This document shows, piece by piece, positions 10,430 to 43,342 of a DNA stretch of 43,901 nucleotides. The notes beneath the pieces are model-generated. The model ran no database searches, was not told where the DNA came from, and saw nothing but the letters and a program-made list of their open reading frames with translations. Source of the DNA: Clostridium sp. (GTDB taxonomy: Bacteria > Bacillota > Clostridia > Clostridiales > Clostridiaceae); NCBI RefSeq assembly GCF_021372645.1, contig NZ_JAJFUC010000061.1, forward strand, positions 1 through 43,901, in the 5' to 3' direction. The position numbers and the translations under genes are program-made. The stretch's first letter is position 1; every line of letters begins with the position of its first letter.

Positions 10430-11791
10430 TTGTCTTTAATACATAAATTTAAGCAAGGTGAAAACTATTTTGTTTTAGATGTAAACACTGGGGCAGTTCA
10501 TGTAGTGGATGAACTAGTCTATGATATATTAGGTGAGGATAAATTAAAGAATAAGAAAGAAATATTAGAAGAACTTAAAGGAAAATATGATAAAGAAGAA
10601 CTTTCAGAAGCTTATGATGAAATTCAAGAATTAGCAGAAGAAGGTATTCTTTATTCAGAAGATCAATATGAAGAAATCGCTCACAGTTCTATGGATGATA
10701 GAGATTACATAAAGGCTATTTGTTTAAATGTTATTCATGGGTGCAATTTAAGATGTAAATATTGTTTTGCTGATGAAGGTGAATATCATGGACATGGCGG
10801 AGTTATGAACCTAGAAACAGCTCAAAAGGCAATTGACTATGTTATTAAAAGAAGTGGTCCAAGAAAGAATATAGAAATTGATTTGTTTGGTGGAGAGCCA
10901 ACATTAATCATGGATACTATAAAAGAAATAATTAAGTATGCTAGAGATAATGAAGAAAAGTGGGGAAAGAAAATTAGGTTTACTATGACCACTAATGCTA
11001 CTCTTTTAACTCCAGAGATGATGGATTATATGGATAAGGAAATGGGAAACATTATTTTATCATTAGATGGAAGAAAAGAAGTTAATGATAATGTTAGAAT
11101 TAAGCCAGATAAGAGCGGTTCTTATGATGATATTGTACCTAACATAAAAGAGATGATTAAAAGAAGAACTAAGGGAAAAACTTATTATGTTAGAGGAACT
11201 TTCACAAGAGGAAACATAGATTTTTATGAAGATGTAATGGCTATGGTAAATGAAGGCTTTAGGGAATTATCAATAGAACCTGTTGTTTTAGAAAACGGAC
11301 ATCCTCTTTCTCTTAGAGAAGAAGATATTGATACGATTTTTGATAATTATGATAAATTGTATGAAGAAATGAAAAGAAGAAAAAGAGAAGGAAATGAAGA
11401 ATTTAAATTCTATCATTTTAATATAGATCTTCAAGGTGGACCATGCGTTTATAAGAGAATTTCAGGTTGTGGAGCTGGTTTTGAATATGTAGCAATAACT
11501 CCACAAGGAGATGTATATCCATGTCATCAATTTGTTGGAAAAGAAGAATTCAAACTAGGAAGTATTAATGATGATACTTACGATACAGAACTTGCTAAGA
11601 AATTCAAGAAATCTCATATATACAATAAACCTAAGTGTAAAGATTGTTGGGCAAAATTCTACTGTAGTGGTGGATGCCAAGCAAATAATTTTAATTTCAA
11701 TGGAGATATGAATATTCCTTATGAAATTGGGTGTAAAATGCAAAAGAAGAGAATTGAATGTGCAATTGCATTGAAATGTGAAGATAATTAA
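10430..11791 (+). CDS. scfB: SCIFF peptide maturase, radical SAM/SPASM thioether-forming enzyme
   Basis: The 453-residue enzyme installs Cys-to-Thr thioether bonds in the SCIFF peptide. Residues 1-80 form a PqqD-like peptide-recognition (RRE) domain. The radical SAM cluster motif CNLRCKYC places C105, C109 and C112. The SPASM region near the C-terminus has CGAGFEYVAITPQGDVYPC and then CKDCWAKFYCSGGC with a late cysteine in EIGCKM, which bind two auxiliary iron-sulfur clusters. The start is TTG at 10430, preceded by AGGAGG (10416-10421) at a good distance. The neighbouring precursor makes the assignment secure. Confidence 0.95.
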   Translation: MSLIHKFKQGENYFVLDVNTGAVHVVDELVYDILGEDKLKNKKEILEELKGKYDKEELSEAYDEIQELAEEGILYSEDQYEEIAHSSMDDRDYIKAICLNVIHGCNLRCKYCFADEGEYHGHGGVMNLETAQKAIDYVIKRSGPRKNIEIDLFGGEPTLIMDTIKEIIKYARDNEEKWGKKIRFTMTTNATLLTPEMMDYMDKEMGNIILSLDGRKEVNDNVRIKPDKSGSYDDIVPNIKEMIKRRTKGKTYYVRGTFTRGNIDFYEDVMAMVNEGFRELSIEPVVLENGHPLSLREEDIDTIFDNYDKLYEEMKRRKREGNEEFKFYHFNIDLQGGPCVYKRISGCGAGFEYVAITPQGDVYPCHQFVGKEEFKLGSINDDTYDTELAKKFKKSHIYNKPKCKDCWAKFYCSGGCQANNFNFNGDMNIPYEIGCKMQKKRIECAIALKCEDN

Positions 11792-35063: not shown

Positions 35064-35136
35064 AAGTTAGGATGTTAATATATTTTATATACCTAAATTA
35101 AAAATTTTTTATTTGGCTAAGAGAGGATTGAGTTAT

Positions 35137-36312
35137 ATGAAAAAAATACCATTTTCACCACCTGATATAACAGAAGAAGAAATAGAAGCAGTAGCTAATG
35201 TGCTAAGATCAGGATGGATTACTTCAGGACCACAACTTGCAAAGTTTGAAGAAGGAATAGAAGAGTACTTAAAAGTTAATAAAGCTTTAGCATTAAATAG
35301 TGCAACTGCTGCAATGGAGTTAGTACTTAAGGTATTTGATATAAAAGAAGGAGATGAGATTATATCTACTCCTTATACTTATACTGCAACTTCAAGTGTT
35401 GCTGTACATAGAGGGGTTAAGCCTATATATGTAGATGTAAAAAAAGATACTTTTGAAATGGATATAGATAAGGTTGCTGAAAAGATTACAGATAAGACAA
35501 AAGTAATTATGCCAGTAGATATTGCGGGTCTACCATTTGACTATGATGCATTAAAGAAAGTTTTAAAAGATAAAAATAGAGAAGATATTATGATTCTTTG
35601 TGATTCAGCACATTCTTTTGGTGCTAAATACAAAGGAGAGCCAGTTGGATCTCAATGTGACTTCCATTCATTCTCATTCCATGCAGTTAAGAATTTAACT
35701 ACTGGTGAAGGTGGAGCAGTTACTTTTAATGATAATAATTTTAAAGAACATGAAAATCTACTTCAATATATGAGATTTACTGCTATGCATGGTCAATCAA
35801 AGGATGCTTTAAGTAAACTTAAGGCTGGAGCTTGGGAATATGATATTATAAATGATGGACTTAAATGTAATTTAACAGATATAGGAGCTGCAATTGGTGT
35901 AGTTCAACTTAAGAGATATGAAGGAATGCTTGAAAAGAGAAGACAAATTTTCAAGACATACACAGAGATTTTATCTAAAGAAGATTTTTCAATAATTCCA
36001 GTTACTAAAGATGATAATGGAACTGAAACATCATATCATTTATATCTTTATAGAGTTAAAGGCTTTAATGAAGAAAAGAGAAATGCAGTTATTCAAAAGT
36101 TAGCTGAAATGGGAATAGCAACAAATGTTCATTATAAACCTCTCCCAATGCTAACACTTTACAAAAATCTTGGATATGACATTAAGGATTATCCAAATGC
36201 TTATGCTCAATATGAAAATGAAATTACACTTCCAGTATATACTACATTGTCTCTTGAGGATGCGGAGTATATAGCGAAGGAAACTTTAAAAGTAATTAAA
36301 GAGTTATTATAA
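35137..36312 (+). CDS. DegT/DnrJ/EryC1-family sugar aminotransferase (first)
   Basis: This 391-residue PLP enzyme is of the type that aminates nucleotide-linked keto sugars. PLP-related residues are D156 in LCDSAHSFG and K185 in SFHAVKNLTTGEGG. GWITSGPQLAKFEE and NSATAAMELVLK are family-typical. The start ATG 35137 is nine bases after GAGAGGA (35121-35127). The TTG at 35113 is upstream of that site. Transcription probably begins at the MerR-type promoter near 35017. A strong terminator closes the unit. No other sugar-nucleotide genes are next to it, so the product sugar cannot be named. Confidence 0.9.
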   Translation: MKKIPFSPPDITEEEIEAVANVLRSGWITSGPQLAKFEEGIEEYLKVNKALALNSATAAMELVLKVFDIKEGDEIISTPYTYTATSSVAVHRGVKPIYVDVKKDTFEMDIDKVAEKITDKTKVIMPVDIAGLPFDYDALKKVLKDKNREDIMILCDSAHSFGAKYKGEPVGSQCDFHSFSFHAVKNLTTGEGGAVTFNDNNFKEHENLLQYMRFTAMHGQSKDALSKLKAGAWEYDIINDGLKCNLTDIGAAIGVVQLKRYEGMLEKRRQIFKTYTEILSKEDFSIIPVTKDDNGTETSYHLYLYRVKGFNEEKRNAVIQKLAEMGIATNVHYKPLPMLTLYKNLGYDIKDYPNAYAQYENEITLPVYTTLSLEDAEYIAKETLKVIKELL

Positions 36313-36335
36313 TAATAGCTTGTTCAGTTTATAAT

Positions 36336-36375
36336 AAAAGCAGTAGGTTAAGAAAAATTTTTACCTACTGCTTTT
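36336..36375 (+). terminator. Terminator after the first aminotransferase
   Basis: A perfect 13-bp stem (AAAAGCAGTAGGT at 36336-36348 with its complement at 36363-36375). The right arm ends in TTTT. Confidence 0.9.
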
Positions 36376-36405
36376 GTAATATATAACTTTATAATGTATG
36401 AATTC

Positions 36406-36438
36406 AGACTTTAATGTTAATAAATATAATTAAAGTCT
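36406..36438 (+). promoter_or_regulatory. Hairpin in the leader of the DUF262 cassette
   Basis: AGACTTTAAT (36406-36415) and ATTAAAGTCT (36429-36438) form a perfect 10-bp stem with a 13-base loop, about 50 bases before the first gene of the cassette and without a T tail. TATAAT at 36390-36395 just upstream could be a -10 box with a poor -35. An operator or leader structure is possible. Confidence 0.4.
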
Positions 36439-36487
36439 ATAAAATATAAGTTATATAGATTATAATTTATATAGGTGGTGAACGGAG

Positions 36488-37708
36488 ATGCAAGAAATAA
36501 GTATTATAGATGCAGAAGTTATTTTTAATAAAATAGAAGAAGAAGATAAGAAGGAAGCAGAAAAACCTGACTACAGTTCAATAACTAGTAATAGTATAAC
36601 TCAATATAAAAGTGATTTGGCATTTATAACTTTAATGGAAGGATTAGATCAAGGGTTGTATGTAATACCAAAGTATCAAAGAAAATTTATTTGGTTACAA
36701 GAGCAAGTTGAAAATTTAGCAGTATCTTTAATAAGAGGGTTACCAATTCCTCCTATATATGTATCAAGAAATGAAAAAAAACAAATGGAGATACTTGATG
36801 GACAGCAAAGAATGATAAGTTTATTTTTATATTATAAGGGCAAGTATATAAAGAATAGCTCAAATACATCAATTGAATTACAGGAGATAACATGTGATGA
36901 AAGTCTAACAGAAGATGGAACAGATTTCTTGAGTTTGATTGAAAAACTATGGAAGTTAAAAAATGTTACTTATGAATATAAATATATTGATGATAATTCT
37001 GAAAAAGAGAAAGCAATTGATATAAGTTATAAAACGCTTCCTATTGAAATAAAAAGGACAGTAGATTTTACTACAATTTCAGTAGTAGAAATAAAAGTAG
37101 ATGATGAAGAACATAAAAATAGAATATTATATAAAGTATTTGAAAATTTAAATAGTGGTGGAACTAAACTTACTAATCAAGAATTAAGAGATGGTATATA
37201 CCAATGTGAATTTTATGAGATGTTACACACTATAAATAATACTAATATGAAGTGGAGGAATATTTATGGTCCTAAGCATAAGCATAGCAGAGATGTTGAG
37301 CTTTTACTAAGATTTTCAGCAGTAGAATATTTCTTTAAATTAGAAGATGAAAAAATAAAAATAAATAATTATTTTGGATCGTATCCTAAATTACTTAATG
37401 ATTTTTCAGATAAAGCCATCAAATTTAATGAGGCAACTATTTTAAAGTACAAAAATAATATAGAAAAATTTATAAATAGAATTGAATTTAGTGGAAGAAT
37501 GCCTAACTTATTAATAGAGAGTTTATATCTAGCAAGTACTTATATAGATGGCGAATATAAAATACAGGATGATATTTGTAATTTAATACTAAAGAGTGAC
37601 GAGTTTAAAGATGGAGCTTTAAGTTATTCAGCAAGTAAAGTAAATGTAAAAGAGAGGTTTAACTATGTCTACAGAGAATTATCAAAATATGTTGAAGGAA
37701 ATAAGTAA
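36488..37708 (+). CDS. DUF262 (GmrS-like, DGQQR) protein, putative defence component
   Basis: The 406-residue protein has the DUF262 (ParB/sulfiredoxin-like fold) core: IPKYQRKFIW (60-69), SLIRGLPIPPIYV (80-92), the nucleotide-binding DGQQR (104-108), and NLNSGGTKLTNQELRD further on. In GmrSD-type restriction enzymes and BrxU this domain hydrolyses nucleotides and controls an attached nuclease. Here no DUF1524 nuclease domain is fused; the C-terminal half (about 240-406) is helical and unassigned. The gene follows AGGTGG at good spacing. It overlaps the ATPase gene by 44 bases, which argues for one functional unit. Acting as sensor or regulator of the ATPase-HNH pair is an inference. Confidence 0.85.
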   Translation: MQEISIIDAEVIFNKIEEEDKKEAEKPDYSSITSNSITQYKSDLAFITLMEGLDQGLYVIPKYQRKFIWLQEQVENLAVSLIRGLPIPPIYVSRNEKKQMEILDGQQRMISLFLYYKGKYIKNSSNTSIELQEITCDESLTEDGTDFLSLIEKLWKLKNVTYEYKYIDDNSEKEKAIDISYKTLPIEIKRTVDFTTISVVEIKVDDEEHKNRILYKVFENLNSGGTKLTNQELRDGIYQCEFYEMLHTINNTNMKWRNIYGPKHKHSRDVELLLRFSAVEYFFKLEDEKIKINNYFGSYPKLLNDFSDKAIKFNEATILKYKNNIEKFINRIEFSGRMPNLLIESLYLASTYIDGEYKIQDDICNLILKSDEFKDGALSYSASKVNVKERFNYVYRELSKYVEGNK

Positions 37709-38630
37709 TAAGATTCTTAATAATAAACTTAAATATAAAAATACAATAATAATAGGAGACAATAGTAGTGGTAAATCAGAAGTATTAAAATCTCTATTTG
37801 AGTATAAAAAAGAAGGATATTATTTTATAGATTCTGTAAATAGAAGTTTTGATTTTACTAAAGTAAGTTCTTTAAAAGGATTAGAATTAGGAAGTTATAA
37901 AAAAGTTGTTGAACGAAGAGTAGATGATGTAAAGAATTTTAACTTAGAGGATAGTTTTGATGTATTCGGGGATGGTAATGGATCTATTGAACAAGTTTAT
38001 TTTAATTATGATAAAAGAGTAAAATCGTTGTTTAAGGAATTACTTAATATAGATTTTAATATTGAAATTAAGGATAATCTTATTATAGGTAAAAAACCAT
38101 TATTGAAAATTGGAAATGAATTTGAAAAATTATCAAGCGGATTTCAAGCAATAATAAGAATTCTTTTAGAAATATGTTATTTTGAAGATTCTTTAGAAAA
38201 AGATATAAAAAATCCATTTGTAGTTATTGATGAAGTTAATGAATTTTTATCATCAAAGAATGAGGAAAAGATGTTACCATTTTTAAAGAAAAATTTTAAA
38301 CAGATGAATTTTATAGTTACAACACACTCTCCAGACATAATAGCAAGTTCAGAGGAATTTAATATAATAGCATTGAAGAGTAATAATTATCAATGCTTAG
38401 ATGGTAATGACTATAGAAGTGTAACGGATGTACGTGAAATATTTGCAGAAATATATGATATAAAAGATGATGATAAAGCTGATCATATTGAGTTTACATT
38501 AAGAAACTTACTTAATCTTAAAATTAGCAATGCATGGACAGATATAGAAGAACATAAGTTGAAGTTAATTAATGAAAATAGATTATCTAATGCACAAAAG
38601 TTATTATTAACGCAAATAAAAAGTTGGTGA
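37665..38630 (+). CDS. ABC/AAA-type ATPase, PtuA-like
   Basis: The 321-residue ATPase is of the AAA_15/AAA_21 (OLD/SMC-like) class. Walker A is GDNSSGKS (31-38), the signature-like segment is LSSGFQ (156-161), Walker B with the catalytic glutamate is VVIDE (186-190), and the switch histidine is in TTHSPD (219-224). It is short, with no coiled coil or TOPRIM nuclease, as in the ATPase of Septu systems. It starts inside the preceding gene with AGAGAGG at good distance. The HNH gene follows four bases after its stop. It likely binds the HNH partner and holds it inactive until triggered, by analogy with PtuA. Confidence 0.88.
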   Translation: MSTENYQNMLKEISNKILNNKLKYKNTIIIGDNSSGKSEVLKSLFEYKKEGYYFIDSVNRSFDFTKVSSLKGLELGSYKKVVERRVDDVKNFNLEDSFDVFGDGNGSIEQVYFNYDKRVKSLFKELLNIDFNIEIKDNLIIGKKPLLKIGNEFEKLSSGFQAIIRILLEICYFEDSLEKDIKNPFVVIDEVNEFLSSKNEEKMLPFLKKNFKQMNFIVTTHSPDIIASSEEFNIIALKSNNYQCLDGNDYRSVTDVREIFAEIYDIKDDDKADHIEFTLRNLLNLKISNAWTDIEEHKLKLINENRLSNAQKLLLTQIKSW

Positions 38631-38634
38631 TTTT

Positions 38635-39420
38635 ATGCGTGAAAATATACTTTTATTGGATATTCCTAATTTTAATCCAAAGTATGATAGTAAAGTTCAT
38701 TATGCATATGAGGATAAACGTGGAAGTATAAATTTGAAAAAATTACTTATAGATACTTCAAAAGGTTATTGTATGTATTGTTATAGTAGAATTTTAATTG
38801 ATGAAAAAAATTCTGGTCATTTAGAACATTCAATTGAAAAGGCTAATTCTGATTTATTGAAAGAATGTATTAGTAATATTTCAATAACGTGTTCTAAGTG
38901 TAATCTATCTTTTAAACGAGTTGGTGAAAAAGATAGAAAACTGAGTAAAAGAACAATTAGTAAATTTAATAAAATGGTAAGCTGTGAAAAATCATGTATA
39001 AATATTTGTGATGAATACAATACATTAAGAAAACAATATATAAGTAGAGTTGGTTCTGAAATAATATTGCAGCCTTTTGGCGTTAAAAACTCTAATACTA
39101 ATATTGAATTAAGAATTCAGTATGATGTACTTAATCAAGAATTTATACCAAGCAATGATTATAAATATAACGATAATGAAAAAGAATTTATAAAAAAGCA
39201 TATAAAAAGATTTAATTTAAATGATACTACATATAGAACTAAATCTATTATAAAACTTTGTGAAGATGTAATAAATTTTGAAAAACTTCCTAAAGTAGAA
39301 AGGTATGAAAATTTAATTGCTGATTTACTAATAGAGAAATTAGAAAAAGTTGAGTTAGATAAAGCTATAAAGCTATGTGTAATAATTTATGAACAAGCTA
39401 TAATAAAAAATAAGAATTAA
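38635..39420 (+). CDS. HNH endonuclease-like protein, PtuB-like
   Basis: The 261-residue protein carries a zinc-supported HNH core: CMYC (C46, C49), HLEH (H62, E64, H65), then a CSKCN (C86, C89, N90) second cysteine pair. This CxxC-HxEH-CxxCN order fits the HNH family of PtuB and retron-associated effectors (TIGR02646-like). The C-terminal 150 residues are unassigned. The start ATG 38635 is preceded by GGTGA inside the ATPase end. A nuclease acting on DNA or tRNA is likely (PtuB has been reported to cut nucleic acid). The target here is unknown. A strong 23-bp terminator follows. Confidence 0.85.
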   Translation: MRENILLLDIPNFNPKYDSKVHYAYEDKRGSINLKKLLIDTSKGYCMYCYSRILIDEKNSGHLEHSIEKANSDLLKECISNISITCSKCNLSFKRVGEKDRKLSKRTISKFNKMVSCEKSCINICDEYNTLRKQYISRVGSEIILQPFGVKNSNTNIELRIQYDVLNQEFIPSNDYKYNDNEKEFIKKHIKRFNLNDTTYRTKSIIKLCEDVINFEKLPKVERYENLIADLLIEKLEKVELDKAIKLCVIIYEQAIIKNKN

Positions 39421-39474
39421 TTAAATAAGATTCATTTAAGAATAAAGATAGTAATATCTATATATATAGGTGTG

Positions 39475-39523
39475 AAAATAAACTTTATGTAATTAAAATA
39501 TTTAATTACATAAAGTTTATTTT
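39475..39523. terminator. Long terminator hairpin after the defence cassette
   Basis: A perfect 23-bp stem (39475-39497 with 39501-39523) around a three-base loop. The right side continues TTATT, and the left arm begins with AAAA, so it could work in both directions. Confidence 0.85.
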
Positions 39524-39554
39524 ATTATTTCAAGAGAATTTTTAAAAATAAGTG

Positions 39555-39585
39555 TTGACCCTGCCCTAAGGGAAGGGATTACAAT
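39555..39585 (+). promoter_or_regulatory. MerR-type promoter/operator of the MerR-methyltransferase gene
   Basis: TTGACC at 39555-39560 and TACAAT at 39580-39585 have a 19-base spacer. The dyad CCCTGCCCT-A-AGGGAAGGG (39559-39577) has eight of nine pairs matching, centred between the boxes. Transcription would begin near 39592, just before the gene, as expected for autoregulation by a MerR protein. Confidence 0.85.
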
Positions 39586-39607
39586 TGATTTAATGGGAGT
39601 GATAATT

Positions 39608-40768
39608 TTGAAGATAGGTGAATTTGCTAAAAAATCAGGAGTAACTGTAAAAACATTGCTTCATTATGATAAAATAGGACTTCTTAAGCCATCACACAAA
39701 ACAGATGCAGGATATAGAATTTATTGTGAAGAGGATTTTTTAAAGCTTCAACAAATTACAACCTTAAAATTCATAGGCTTACCATTAAATGAAATAAATC
39801 ATATTTTATATGAAAGCGGAGAAAATCTGGAGAGTATGATAAGCATTCAAAAGAAGGCTTTAGAAGAAAAGAAAAAACATATTGATGCAGTTATAGATGT
39901 TTTTAATAAAGCTAAAAATACAGCAAAGAAAAATGGATTTTTAGATGCTAACAATTTAATCGATATTATAAAGATAACTAATATGGAAAGCAGGGTTAGA
40001 GAGCAATATAAAAGTGATAAGAACCTTAACATTAGGAGTAATCTCCATAGCTATAACATAAATAAAGTAGACTTTGATAAATGGTGTTTTAATCAAATAA
40101 ATTTTCCGAAGAATGCAAGAATATTAGAAATTGGATGTGGCACAGGAAAGCTTTGGTTTAAGAATAAAGAAAGCATTTATAAAAATTTAGATATTACTTT
40201 ATCAGATTTTTCAAAAAGTATGTTAAAGATTGCAAAGGATAAATTAAAAGACATAGATTATGACTTTAAGTATGAAGAAATCAACGTGGAAAACATTCCA
40301 TATGAAGATGAAAGTTTTGACATTGTTATTGCAGAACATATGATTTATTTTGCATCAGATATAGAAAAAGCTTTATCTGAAATAAAGAGAGTTTTAACTT
40401 GTGGAGGCATGCTTTATGTAAGTGCGAATTCATGTGAAACTATGGCAGAATTAAATAAACTTGTAGAAAAATTTGATTCAAGTCTTGGAATTGATAATAA
40501 CGGATATTCATCTAGGTTTGAATTAGAAAATGGAGATGCAGTTCTTAAAAAATATTTTAATAAAGTTGATGTAGAAATATTAGAAGGAAAAATCATAGTA
40601 GATGATGCAAAACCTGTGGTTTCTTATAAAGCTTCAACGATTCAAGGTAGTTCAATACTTGTTGGAGAAAAGAAAAAAGAATTCACAAAGTACTTAGAAG
40701 ATTATATTAAAAAGAATGGGGATATATCAATAACTACAAAAACTTGTATGTTTAAAGCAATGAAATAA
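39608..40768 (+). CDS. MerR regulator fused to a SAM-dependent methyltransferase
   Basis: The 386-residue protein begins MKIGEFAKKSGVTVKTLLHY (TTG start eight bases after GGGAG at 39595-39599). The ATG at 39593 would be leaderless. Residues 1-70 are a MerR winged HTH with IGLLKP and DAGYRIY, followed by a helical dimerisation segment (about 75-115). Motif I of a class I methyltransferase, ILEIGCGTGKLW, lies near residues 172-183, and SFDIVIAEHMIYF is the motif III region. The effector-binding part of a normal MerR is thus replaced by a methyltransferase domain. Its own promoter carries a MerR operator, so autoregulation is likely. It could sense SAM or a methylation substrate (inference). Confidence 0.85.
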   Translation: MKIGEFAKKSGVTVKTLLHYDKIGLLKPSHKTDAGYRIYCEEDFLKLQQITTLKFIGLPLNEINHILYESGENLESMISIQKKALEEKKKHIDAVIDVFNKAKNTAKKNGFLDANNLIDIIKITNMESRVREQYKSDKNLNIRSNLHSYNINKVDFDKWCFNQINFPKNARILEIGCGTGKLWFKNKESIYKNLDITLSDFSKSMLKIAKDKLKDIDYDFKYEEINVENIPYEDESFDIVIAEHMIYFASDIEKALSEIKRVLTCGGMLYVSANSCETMAELNKLVEKFDSSLGIDNNGYSSRFELENGDAVLKKYFNKVDVEILEGKIIVDDAKPVVSYKASTIQGSSILVGEKKKEFTKYLEDYIKKNGDISITTKTCMFKAMK

Positions 40769-40770
40769 TG

Positions 40771-40790
40771 CATATGAAAGAAAATAACCT
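40771..40790 (+). repeat. Single-arm fragment of the hairpin repeat in an operon gap
   Basis: CATATGAAAGAAAATAACC matches the left arm of copies B and C. It lies between the MerR gene and the second aminotransferase and creates a misleading in-frame ATG upstream of the real start. Confidence 0.5.
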
Positions 40791-40833
40791 AATGGTAAAA
40801 CAACCACGAGGTAAAATTAAGGAGATAGAAAAA

Positions 40834-42024
40834 ATGAATATTCCATTAGTTGATTTAAAAGCTCAATACAAAATAGTTGAGGAAAAAGCAGTAAAGGCTG
40901 TATGTGAAGTACTTTCATCTGCAAGCTATATTATGGGGAAGGATGTAACAGAATTTGAAAAGGAATTTGCAGAATATATAGGAGTTAAACACGCTATATC
41001 TGTTGGTAATGGTACAGATGCTTTAGTTGTAGCACTTATGGCTTGTGGTATTGGAGAAGGTGATGAAGTTATAACTACACCATTTACGTTTTTTGCTACA
41101 GCAGAAAGTATTTCATTTGTAGGTGCGATTCCTGTTTTTGTGGATGTAGAAAAGGATACTTACAATATAGATCCATTAAAGATAGAAGAAAAGATTACTA
41201 AAAAAACAAAAGCAATTATGCCAGTTCATATATTTGGTCAATCAGCAAAGATGGATGAAATAATGGCAATTGCTAAAAAGTATAACTTAAAGGTTATAGA
41301 AGATGCAGCACAAGCTGTTGGTGCTGAATATAGAGAAAAGAAAGTTGGCGCAATAGGAGATGTAGGATGTTTCTCATTTTTCCCAACTAAAAATCTTGGC
41401 TGTGCAGGGGATGGTGGAATTATAACAACATCTGATGATAATATAGCAACTATTGCAAGAGCACTAAGAACTCATGGCAGTGGAGAAAATGGTCAAAGAG
41501 CTTATAATTTATTAAATAAAATAAATGAAGAAGTTAAAACTTCAGAAGGACATGATGATACAATATATAATCCATTAAAATATTATAATTATTTGATTGG
41601 ATTTAATACAAGGTTAGATACAATTCAAGCTGCAATTTTAAGAATTAAGCTAACGAATATAGATAATTGGAATGAAAAAAGAAGAGAAAATGCTAAAATG
41701 TATGATAAAAAATTAAAAGATACAGCTTTGACATTGCCTATAACAATAGCTGAAAGTAAATCCGTATATAATATGTATGTAGTACAATCTGAAAATAGAG
41801 AGGAAATGCTTAATAAGCTAAAAGAAAAAAATATAAGCACAGGAGTTTATTATCCAGTTCCAATGCACCTGCAGAAGGTATATAAAGGTCTTGGATATAA
41901 AGAAGGGGATATGCCTGTAGCTGAGTATTTATCACATAGGACATTTGCAATACCGATCTTCCCAGAGTTAAGTATAGAACAAAAAGAGTATATTGTTGAA
42001 ATAATAAGAGCTGTAAATTGCTAA
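40834..42024 (+). CDS. DegT/DnrJ/EryC1-family sugar aminotransferase (second)
   Basis: The 396-residue PLP enzyme begins IPLVDLKAQY, with D157 in IEDAAQAVG and K186 in FSFFPTKNLGCAGDGG. An insertion of some 25 residues (around 215-245, TSEGHDDTIYNP) separates GSGENGQRAYN from the active-site loop GFNTRLDTIQAAIL. The start ATG 40834 follows AAGGAG (40819-40824). The longer frame from 40768 is made from a repeat fragment. It is distinct from the first aminotransferase (the two are not recent duplicates). It is probably co-transcribed with the MerR-methyltransferase gene, 65 bases upstream. The sugar substrate is unknown. Confidence 0.9.
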   Translation: MNIPLVDLKAQYKIVEEKAVKAVCEVLSSASYIMGKDVTEFEKEFAEYIGVKHAISVGNGTDALVVALMACGIGEGDEVITTPFTFFATAESISFVGAIPVFVDVEKDTYNIDPLKIEEKITKKTKAIMPVHIFGQSAKMDEIMAIAKKYNLKVIEDAAQAVGAEYREKKVGAIGDVGCFSFFPTKNLGCAGDGGIITTSDDNIATIARALRTHGSGENGQRAYNLLNKINEEVKTSEGHDDTIYNPLKYYNYLIGFNTRLDTIQAAILRIKLTNIDNWNEKRRENAKMYDKKLKDTALTLPITIAESKSVYNMYVVQSENREEMLNKLKEKNISTGVYYPVPMHLQKVYKGLGYKEGDMPVAEYLSHRTFAIPIFPELSIEQKEYIVEIIRAVNC

Positions 42025-42102
42025 TAAGTTCAGTTTTCACTACTGGTATCTATAAGTATTTAAATCATCTCTACAAATTTTTAATTTACAATCTTAGATG
42101 TA

Positions 42103-42111
42103 TGATATAAT
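42103..42111 (+). promoter_or_regulatory. Possible promoter of the rRNA methyltransferase gene
   Basis: TGATATAAT is an extended -10 element about 45 bases before the gene. TTTACA lies 15 bases upstream of TATAAT, a short spacer. Confidence 0.45.
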
Positions 42112-42154
42112 TATTTAGAATTTAATACAATAATTTGTTTAGGAAGGTACTTAT

Positions 42155-43342
42155 ATGAAAGAGATAATACTTACAGTAAAAAAAGAGTTTGTTAATAAAT
42201 ATAAAAAGGGATATCCATTAATTCTTGAAGAAGTATTGGAAAATGCAAAAGTTTTAAAAGAAGAAGGTCAAATTATAACTCTTATAGATGATAAAAAAGC
42301 TTTTTTAGGAAAAGGATATTATGGAAAACAAAATAAAGGCTGTGGCTGGATTTTAAGTAACAGCAAGAATAGCAATTTAGATTATAAATTCTTTTATGAT
42401 AAAATTAGAAATGCATTTTCTAAAAGAATAAAGCTTTATCATTCAAAAGATACTACTGCATTTAGAGTATTTAATGGTGAAGGTGATGGAATAGGCGGTC
42501 TTACTATTGATTATTTTGATGAATATTATCTTATTACTTGGTATAGTAAAGGAATGTATGAGTTCAAAGATAACATACTTAAAGCTATAAAAGCCTTAGT
42601 GTCTTTTGATGGAATATATGAAAAAAAGAGATTTGAAGAGAATGGTATGGTTGTGGATGAAGACAGTTATTTATGTGGAAGAAAAGCTCCAGAACCTCTT
42701 GTGGTAAAAGAAAATGGAGTTAATTTTGCAATTTATTTAAATGATGGGGCAATGGTTGGAGTATTTTTAGATCAAAAGGAAGTAAGAAAATCTATTAGAG
42801 ATAAATATTCTAGAGGAAAAAGGGTGTTAAATACTTTCTCTTATACAGGAGCTTTTTCTATGGCAGCAGCAAAAGGTGGAGCTATTACTACAAGTGTTGA
42901 CTTAGCAAGTAGAAGTTTAGAAAAAACAACTGAAAATTTTACTATAAATAATATTGATTCTACGAAGCATGATATAATTGTTGAAGATGTTTTTCTTTAT
43001 TTCAAACGCGCAAAAAAAGAAGAATTAAAATTTGATGTGGTTATTCTTGATCCACCAAGCTTTGCAACATCTAAAGATAATAGATTTAGTGCAGCAAAAG
43101 ACTATAAAGATTTGATGAAATCAGCTATAGAGATAACAGAGGATGAAGGCGTAATTGTAGCTTCTACGAATTGTGCTACCTTTAATATGGATAAGTTTAA
43201 GAAGTTTATAGATGAAGCATTTAAAGAATCTAATAAGAAATATGAAATTTTAGAAGAGCATAGTCTTCCAGGAGATTTTGCAGTTACAGAAAAGTTTCCA
43301 GAAGGAAATTATTTGAAGGTTGTGTTTGTAAGAGTTTATTAG
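42155..43342 (+). CDS. Class I rRNA (cytosine-C5) methyltransferase, RlmI-like
   Basis: The 395-residue protein has an N-terminal PUA-like domain (about residues 1-75), a linker with FRVFNGEGDGIGGLTIDYF typical of the RlmI/YwbD group, and a Rossmann methyltransferase domain with motif I VLNTFSYTGAFSMAA near residue 228 and motif IV LDPPSFA near residue 304. It likely methylates a 23S rRNA cytosine at C5, as does RlmI at position 1962 in E. coli. Ribosome binding site AGGAAGG. Its stop codon is followed directly by a heat-shock gene remnant. Confidence 0.9.
   Translation: MKEIILTVKKEFVNKYKKGYPLILEEVLENAKVLKEEGQIITLIDDKKAFLGKGYYGKQNKGCGWILSNSKNSNLDYKFFYDKIRNAFSKRIKLYHSKDTTAFRVFNGEGDGIGGLTIDYFDEYYLITWYSKGMYEFKDNILKAIKALVSFDGIYEKKRFEENGMVVDEDSYLCGRKAPEPLVVKENGVNFAIYLNDGAMVGVFLDQKEVRKSIRDKYSRGKRVLNTFSYTGAFSMAAAKGGAITTSVDLASRSLEKTTENFTINNIDSTKHDIIVEDVFLYFKRAKKEELKFDVVILDPPSFATSKDNRFSAAKDYKDLMKSAIEITEDEGVIVASTNCATFNMDKFKKFIDEAFKESNKKYEILEEHSLPGDFAVTEKFPEGNYLKVVFVRVY

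Follow-up and report, generated by a model that had tools for sequence, protein, structure and literature searches.

A three-gene DUF262, PtuA-like ATPase and HNH-finger operon in Clostridium with the layout of Menshen: a predicted anti-phage system

The window analysed here is a 43,901-nucleotide stretch of a Clostridium sp. genome (NCBI RefSeq assembly GCF_021372645.1, contig NZ_JAJFUC010000061.1, positions 1 to 43,901), and our subject is a cassette of three plus-strand genes that spans 36488-39420 within it. Judged from its sequence, this trio is a divergent branch of the catalogued Menshen layout, with a predicted DUF262 sensor, Septu-type ATPase and HNH nuclease. Menshen itself (NsnABC) was reportedly described by Millman et al. 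in 2022. We put the probability that the trio is a chromosomal tripartite anti-phage operon, with the Menshen layout, a PtuA-type ATPase and an HNH effector, at roughly 0.75. We infer a role in phage defence because two of the proteins match NsnA and NsnC models, gene order and motifs are kept among relatives, related genomes have an empty site in place of the cassette, the cassette appears to have been exchanged between species, and defence homologues lie beside three of the relatives.

The three open reading frames (ORFs) encode proteins of 406, 321 and 261 amino acids (aa). Gene 1 (36488..37708) encodes an NsnA-like DUF262 (GmrSD_N) protein, predicted to be a sensor or regulator that depends on nucleoside triphosphate (NTP). 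Gene 2 (37665..38630) encodes a PtuA-like ATPase of the ATP-binding cassette (ABC)/SMC type that fills the NsnB position, and gene 3 (38635..39420) encodes an NsnC-like protein with an HNH finger that we predict to be the nuclease effector. Genes 1 and 2 overlap by 44 nucleotides (nt) and genes 2 and 3 are separated by 4 nt; the ORF coordinates thus bear out the tight packing described in an earlier note on this DNA, and every motif quoted there (DGQQR, Walker A/B, LSSGFQ, TTHSPD and CxxC-HxEH-CxxCN) was located in the translations. The same note had taken the trio for an undescribed system, a proposal that we reject: the NsnA and NsnC models of PADLOC-DB fit genes 1 and 3, which at the level of single proteins have their best matches in the catalogued Menshen system, and the available part of PMC11980606 already prints a combination of DUF262, PtuA-like ATPase and nuclease under the name ptuXYZ.

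In PADLOC-DB, the best match to gene 1 was the NsnA model PDLC03877 (E 5.1e-47, 159 bits, profile positions 22-382 of 385) and the next was PD-T4-2_A (E 8.8e-29). Pfam identified GmrSD_N (PF03235, DUF262; E 8.5e-31), NCBIfam returned no match, and a profile search of the PDB found the DUF262 protein 7p9k (E 5.7e-6). Conservation was read from alignments of 9 rows for gene 1 and 11 rows for each of genes 2 and 3, which include the window and the 96-99% identical copy from the congeneric genome G401. The NsnA model matched all nine gene 1 rows and was the top match for each of six relatives scanned singly; profile comparison (hhalign) with two canonical NsnA proteins gave a probability of 99% (E 7e-18). 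The DGQQR motif (aa 104-108; 36797..36811) is invariant in 9/9 rows, as are Q64 R65, F218 and N222, and the QR, DGQQR and FxxxN motifs are those named for the DUF262 domains of GrwAB/GmrSD in the part of PMC12137116 that was available. A tree of 21 gene 1 rows recovered the clade of gene 1 and left most of the deeper branches open; it omits L118 and L119 (both like L117), the DUF262 genes of L071-L075 and L077-L079, the cut genes of L004 and L008, and L030. Elsewhere in the genome of the window (G000), a second and weaker match to the NsnA model (contig 25, 102757-103464; L126:4740-5753; 93 bits) falls in a 337-aa protein that does not contain DGQQR.

A DUF262 domain with DGQQR is also what the trio shares with the type IV restriction systems GmrSD, BrxU and SspE. 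The invariant QR, DGQQR and FxxxN motifs of the GmrSD_N domain would suit a split restriction system of the GmrSD kind, in which gene 1 recognises modified DNA, gene 3 cuts it and gene 2 is accessory. We regard this as distinctly improbable, since Pfam finds no DUF1524 nuclease domain in any of the three window proteins and an ATPase with invariant catalytic motifs is present in all 11 loci. Unlike those systems, the window also has its ATPase and HNH genes as separate units, and plain GmrSD is rejected on the missing DUF1524 domain.

For gene 3, the NsnC model PDLC03885 was the best PADLOC match (E 1.2e-84, profile positions 2-252 of 255), compared to 2.1e-9 at best for PtuB. PDLC03885 matched all 11 gene 3 rows and was the top match for each of four relatives scanned singly; the PtuB model PDLC00345 also matched the 11 rows. 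The putative HNH zinc finger (38770..38904) reads C46-x2-C49...E64-H65...N81...C86-x2-C89-N90 (CMYC...HLEH...CSKCN) and aligns with the finger of PtuB. C46, C49, E64, H65, C86, C89 and N90 are invariant in 11/11 rows, together with C117, C121 and C125; N81 is kept in 10/11 rows and is an aspartate in L005, and the first histidine of HLEH is not conserved. From their positions and the PtuB alignment, we read H65-N81-N90 as the probable HNH triad, and an alignment check on the catalytic residues proposed earlier thus found them kept. No NCBIfam model matched gene 3 at E <= 1, TIGR02646 included if it is part of the release, and a profile search of the PDB gave two weak, unrelated matches only.

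The ATPase tells a different story from its neighbours. The best PADLOC match to gene 2 was a PtuA model (E 9.4e-18), ahead of NsnB (E 1.7e-14, 52 bits); Pfam identified SMC_N and AAA_21, and the NCBIfam match to PtuA was weak (43.6 bits against a cut-off of 500). A PtuA model was likewise the top match in 10/10 relatives when each protein was scanned singly, with NsnB ranking below it in eight and failing E 1e-9 in the other two (L003 and L005), although this contest between models is biased to PtuA, which has dozens of models in PADLOC against the one NsnB model seen. The active-site motifs are conserved throughout the 11 rows: in Walker A (GDNSSGKS, aa 31-38; 37755..37778) G31, N33, S34, G36 and K37 are invariant, in the ABC signature (LSSGFQ, aa 156-161; 38130..38147) LSSG and Q161, in Walker B (FVVIDE, aa 185-190; 38217..38234) I188, D189 and E190, and the switch-histidine motif THS within TTHSPD (aa 220-222; 38322..38330) is invariant as a whole. 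In a tree of 29 ATPases, the gene 2 proteins form a separate clade (100/100) that stands beside PtuA with weak support (78/79). This tree was built after removal of L130 (really a PtuB neighbour), L150 (a short ORF) and L149 (the same place as L131), and never included L135-L137, L138 (the same place as L114), L151 or the near copy L030. Profile comparison of gene 2 with hhalign gave 98.7% (E 1.6e-16) against five rows of PtuA and 77.9% (E 1.8e-5) against two rows of canonical NsnB, and the nearest PDB sequences are retron and Septu ATPases, PtuA 8ee4 among them.

Septu (PtuAB) likewise has an HNH-finger protein behind a PtuA-like ATPase, and Walker and H-N-H mutants abolish its immunity according to the accessible portion of PMC13096335. 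The window type differs in having a DUF262 gene in front (11 loci), an ATPase of its own clade that is shorter (321 aa, compared to 406-463 aa in the six class PtuA matches used), and a gene 3 that fits NsnC far better than PtuB. The last point, together with the missing NCBIfam match, leads us to reject plain Septu. A variant of this idea would keep the PtuAB-like pair as the working defence and make the DUF262 protein a dispensable modulator. It can draw on the first rank of PtuA among models for all 11 gene 2 proteins, on the weak grouping with PtuA in the tree, and on the PtuB-like finger with its PDLC00345 matches, yet none of the 11 loci lacks gene 1 or its overlap with gene 2, the DGQQR of gene 1 is invariant, gene 3 prefers NsnC by 1e-84 to 2e-9, and the gene 2 clade is separate from PtuA (100/100). 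We consider a Septu pair with an accessory gene unlikely. A retron with a PtuAB effector finds no reverse transcriptase among the four flanking genes, and retron noncoding RNA was not searched for. The earlier view of a GmrS-like module coupled to a Septu-like pair is supported: gene 1 does carry GmrSD_N and gene 2 is nearer PtuA than NsnB, and the finger of gene 3 aligns with PtuB weakly.

With Menshen, the trio shares the gene order DUF262, ATPase, NsnC, and for its first and third genes the top-scoring models are NsnA and NsnC; it differs in an ATPase nearer PtuA than NsnB and an effector with an HNH finger. As canonical Menshen we took L113 and L114, which come from the same class, on the strength of their scores (NsnA 372 and 364 bits, NsnB 330 and 303 bits). 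They have the same layout, and their third genes lack a Pfam match and fit NsnC models other than that of the window (PDLC03899 and PDLC03891 scoring best); 11 NsnC models turn up in the locus scan with L113 and L114, and PDLC03885, found in the window, is a twelfth. Given these differing matches, NsnC is a position filled by differing proteins. As far as the available text of PMC10952713 goes, DUF262 occurs in Menshen, resistance is lost when the DUF262 gene is mutated or deleted, and this gene is paired with a predicted OLD nuclease. At E <= 1, Pfam gave no OLD or TOPRIM match for gene 2 or gene 3, nor did we find a TOPRIM match in L113 and L114 at E <= 0.01, and since these canonical loci have none, an OLD-type nuclease may not define the Menshen family. 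Menshen also appears in a survey of Bacillus cereus, in what could be seen of PMC11811056. The ptuXYZ operons, compared here by domain content only, resemble the trio in having three genes with DUF262, a PtuA-like ATPase and a nuclease; their third gene is a PIN-like/BECR RNase rather than the HNH-finger protein of the window, whose gene 3 has no PIN or BECR match in Pfam. The part of PMC11980606 that was seen gives 17 such operons and no experiment. In the literature searched we found no description of an operon of DUF262, PtuA-like ATPase and HNH genes; the likeliest source, Li et al. 2025 on Menshen domain polymorphism (cited in PMC12704722 and PMC12839542), is known to us by title only.

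The trio recurs as a unit in other genomes. Using gene 3 as bait, we obtained eight loci (38-45% identity; record names Lachnospiraceae, Eisenbergiella, Eubacteriales or Clostridia), of which L008 and L009 are close to each other. In all eight, relatives of genes 1 and 2 lie directly upstream of gene 3 in the same order (gene 1 is cut at the contig end in L004 and L008), and the same order is found in two congeneric genomes, G401 (L030) and G426 (L031), whose proteins are 96-99% and about 41-44% identical to those of the window. The co-occurrence of the three genes elsewhere, which the earlier note had left to be checked, therefore holds, and the overlap of the first two genes measures 26-50 nt in 11/11 loci when start codons are chosen to match. 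Altogether, 3 of the 68 genus genomes have the trio (G000, G401 and G426). Gene 1 has matches at E <= 1e-3 in 12 genus genomes, the three with the trio among them; the DUF262 genes of the other nine (L014-L022) were set aside, as these short loci match neither gene 2 nor gene 3 at E <= 0.01. Across the class, the NsnA model is found at E <= 1e-20 in 28/391 genomes. The sole match to gene 3 besides the window among 398 phylum genomes, in G133, was taken as chance (E 7.8e-4, 26% identity over 89 aa, four internal stops). Among viral contigs, 30 stretches fit the peptide patterns and 0 encode a gene 3 relative, and gene 2 has a match in a single plasmid record, covering 27% of the gene.

In the window, the trio lies between an aminotransferase gene and a gene for a MerR-methyltransferase, which at 39593-40768 combines a MerR-type DNA-binding domain and an S-adenosylmethionine methyltransferase domain in one protein (Pfam). 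The MerR-methyltransferase has matches at E <= 1e-60 in 23/68 genus genomes, 21 of the 23 at >= 66% identity, window included. Besides the window and G401, 21 genomes have this gene, and we fetched the equivalent site from eight of them. The cassette is missing at 7/8 of these sister loci (L063-L069), where the flanking genes are direct neighbours and no ORF of >= 90 aa separates them (the L067 contig ends inside the aminotransferase gene); at the eighth, L070, an unrelated 280-aa ORF occupies the site. G426 is among the seven empty-site genomes, and its own trio is located elsewhere. Guanine-cytosine (GC) content in 1-kb blocks is 22-25% inside 36500-39499 and 26-32% outside.

Comparison with G401 adds a recent event to this history. 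In 100-bp blocks, 56/3000 positions differ between the window and G401 in 36400-39399, compared to 87/1194 in the left flank (35200-36399) and 121/1200 in the right (39500-40699). At fourfold sites, 8/212 differ in the three cassette genes and 112/524 in the four flanking genes. This sequence pattern supports the view that the two species exchanged the cassette recently; recombination in its flanks is the probable route. As a cassette with no integrase that was apparently exchanged at one site between two species, it offers a neat example of defence-gene turnover. In the G401 locus itself (L030; G401:C1:98000-114000), the second aminotransferase gene that follows the MerR-methyltransferase gene in the window is absent, and a 370-aa ORF that looks transposase-like by eye lies between RNase J-like and aminotransferase genes.

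The neighbours of more distant relatives have a different character. We picked 10 proteins by eye near the trio (one in L031, four in L007, three in L002 and two in L003) and scanned them. In the distantly related L031 and L007, the gene immediately 3' of the trio encodes a TOTE primase-helicase that has a PLD-like domain (L031:8555-11515 and L007:6831-9800), an adjacency that suggests a functional or island link. ATPases near the trio resemble HEC-02A in L007 and HEC-01A in L002; neither of the L003 proteins reached E <= 1e-10 with a defence model. These results bear on a non-defence explanation, by which the trio would belong with the adjacent aminotransferase genes in an operon for housekeeping or regulation. 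Its nearest neighbours in the window, aminotransferase and methyltransferase genes, would fit such a role, but the cassette is missing from most sister loci, is lower in GC than its surroundings and appears to have moved between species, and the neighbours of its relatives differ by eye and include TOTE or HEC defence homologues. We therefore give this explanation very little credence.

Under the defence reading, a mechanism can be sketched by analogy. PtuA probably holds PtuB in check. In the same manner, the gene 2 ATPase, as scaffold and switch, would form an ATP-bound oligomer that restrains the gene 3 HNH protein. The gene 1 DUF262 protein may bind NTP and a phage cue, such as modified DNA or a replication intermediate, and NTP hydrolysis at gene 1 would then release or activate the complex. 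The earlier note had likewise suggested that this protein may sense modified phage DNA, or else nucleotide pools, and free the nuclease. The HNH finger of gene 3 could cut nucleic acid, either phage or host DNA or, as with Septu, tRNA, and this cleavage would stop the infection, probably at a cost to the cell. What the sequences show is the content and order of the genes, their conserved motifs and family matches, and the insertion and exchange of the cassette; complex formation, trigger, target and the anti-phage effect are expectations.

Several results weigh against an anti-phage operon of this composition. The four flanking genes scanned (35113-43342), which Pfam identifies as two aminotransferases, the MerR-methyltransferase and an RlmI-like methyltransferase, look metabolic or regulatory and non-defensive. 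The NsnC model is rare, with matches in 3/391 class genomes, one of which (G647) is apparently the L004 record, and tblastn searches at 1e-5 found gene 3 in none of 72,556 plasmid records and none of 50,697 phage records. The HNH assignment also has its difficulties: hhalign comparison of gene 3 with PtuB gave 29% probability (E 6e-4) over 57 columns at the finger only, and the Pfam HNH match is under the cut-off. AlphaFold gave no reliable structure for gene 3 (mean pLDDT, the predicted local distance difference test score, of 38 from the single sequence and 54 from the alignment, with the HNH region of the alignment-based model below 50), and a Foldseek search with the latter model had no hit at E <= 0.001. 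Placing gene 2 and canonical NsnB in a single clade was rejected by the approximately unbiased (AU) test (cost 40.9 log units, p 0.0007), in a comparison for which the group was defined after the tree, canonical NsnB was represented by L113 and L114 only and several branches were long. Finally, we know of no phage assay of the trio.

Because the model, tree, AU and profile comparisons agree, we describe the trio as having a Menshen layout with a Septu-like ATPase and an HNH-finger effector. There is a further interpretation, which we hold tentatively and at somewhat less than even odds: the trio may be a separate tripartite lineage, in which a Septu-type ATPase/HNH pair was put under the control of an NsnA-like DUF262 protein independently of canonical Menshen. 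Switches, sensors and nucleases would then have been swapped between systems, and PADLOC, going by sensor and effector, would file under Menshen a trio whose switch has another affiliation. A catalogue label assigned by sensor and effector can mask an ATPase of a different family. With its compact set of three genes, the cassette allows one to ask what a Septu-type ATPase/nuclease pair gains from a DUF262 sensor, a question of equal relevance to Menshen, ptuXYZ and Septu.

The operon is flanked by stable plus-strand hairpins on both sides. One, a probable terminator, lies between the upstream aminotransferase gene and gene 1 (36335..36376; -20.4 kcal/mol, z -7.0), and a long A-T-rich hairpin that may be a terminator lies 3' of gene 3 (39475..39523; -21.3 kcal/mol, z -7.7); for both, 0/200 shuffles fold as stably. 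A consensus scan for terminators found 0, with 1.4 expected from shuffles, and because the right hairpin consists almost wholly of A-T it is a weak candidate for an intrinsic terminator. The strong terminators once proposed for both sides are thus upheld as stable structures and weakened as terminators.

Two further observations concern other genes. When wider stretches of eight of the nine non-trio DUF262 loci (without G414) were examined, one, L076, had a DUF262 gene together with an ATPase gene: at L076:2251-4867 (G454), a DUF262 gene with DGQQR overlaps a gene for a 485-aa ATPase whose best PADLOC match is HEC-04, possibly a further DUF262/ATPase system. Elsewhere in the window, 10430-11791 encodes a 453-aa protein that, from the look of its sequence, we take to resemble a SCIFF-type radical-SAM peptide maturase.

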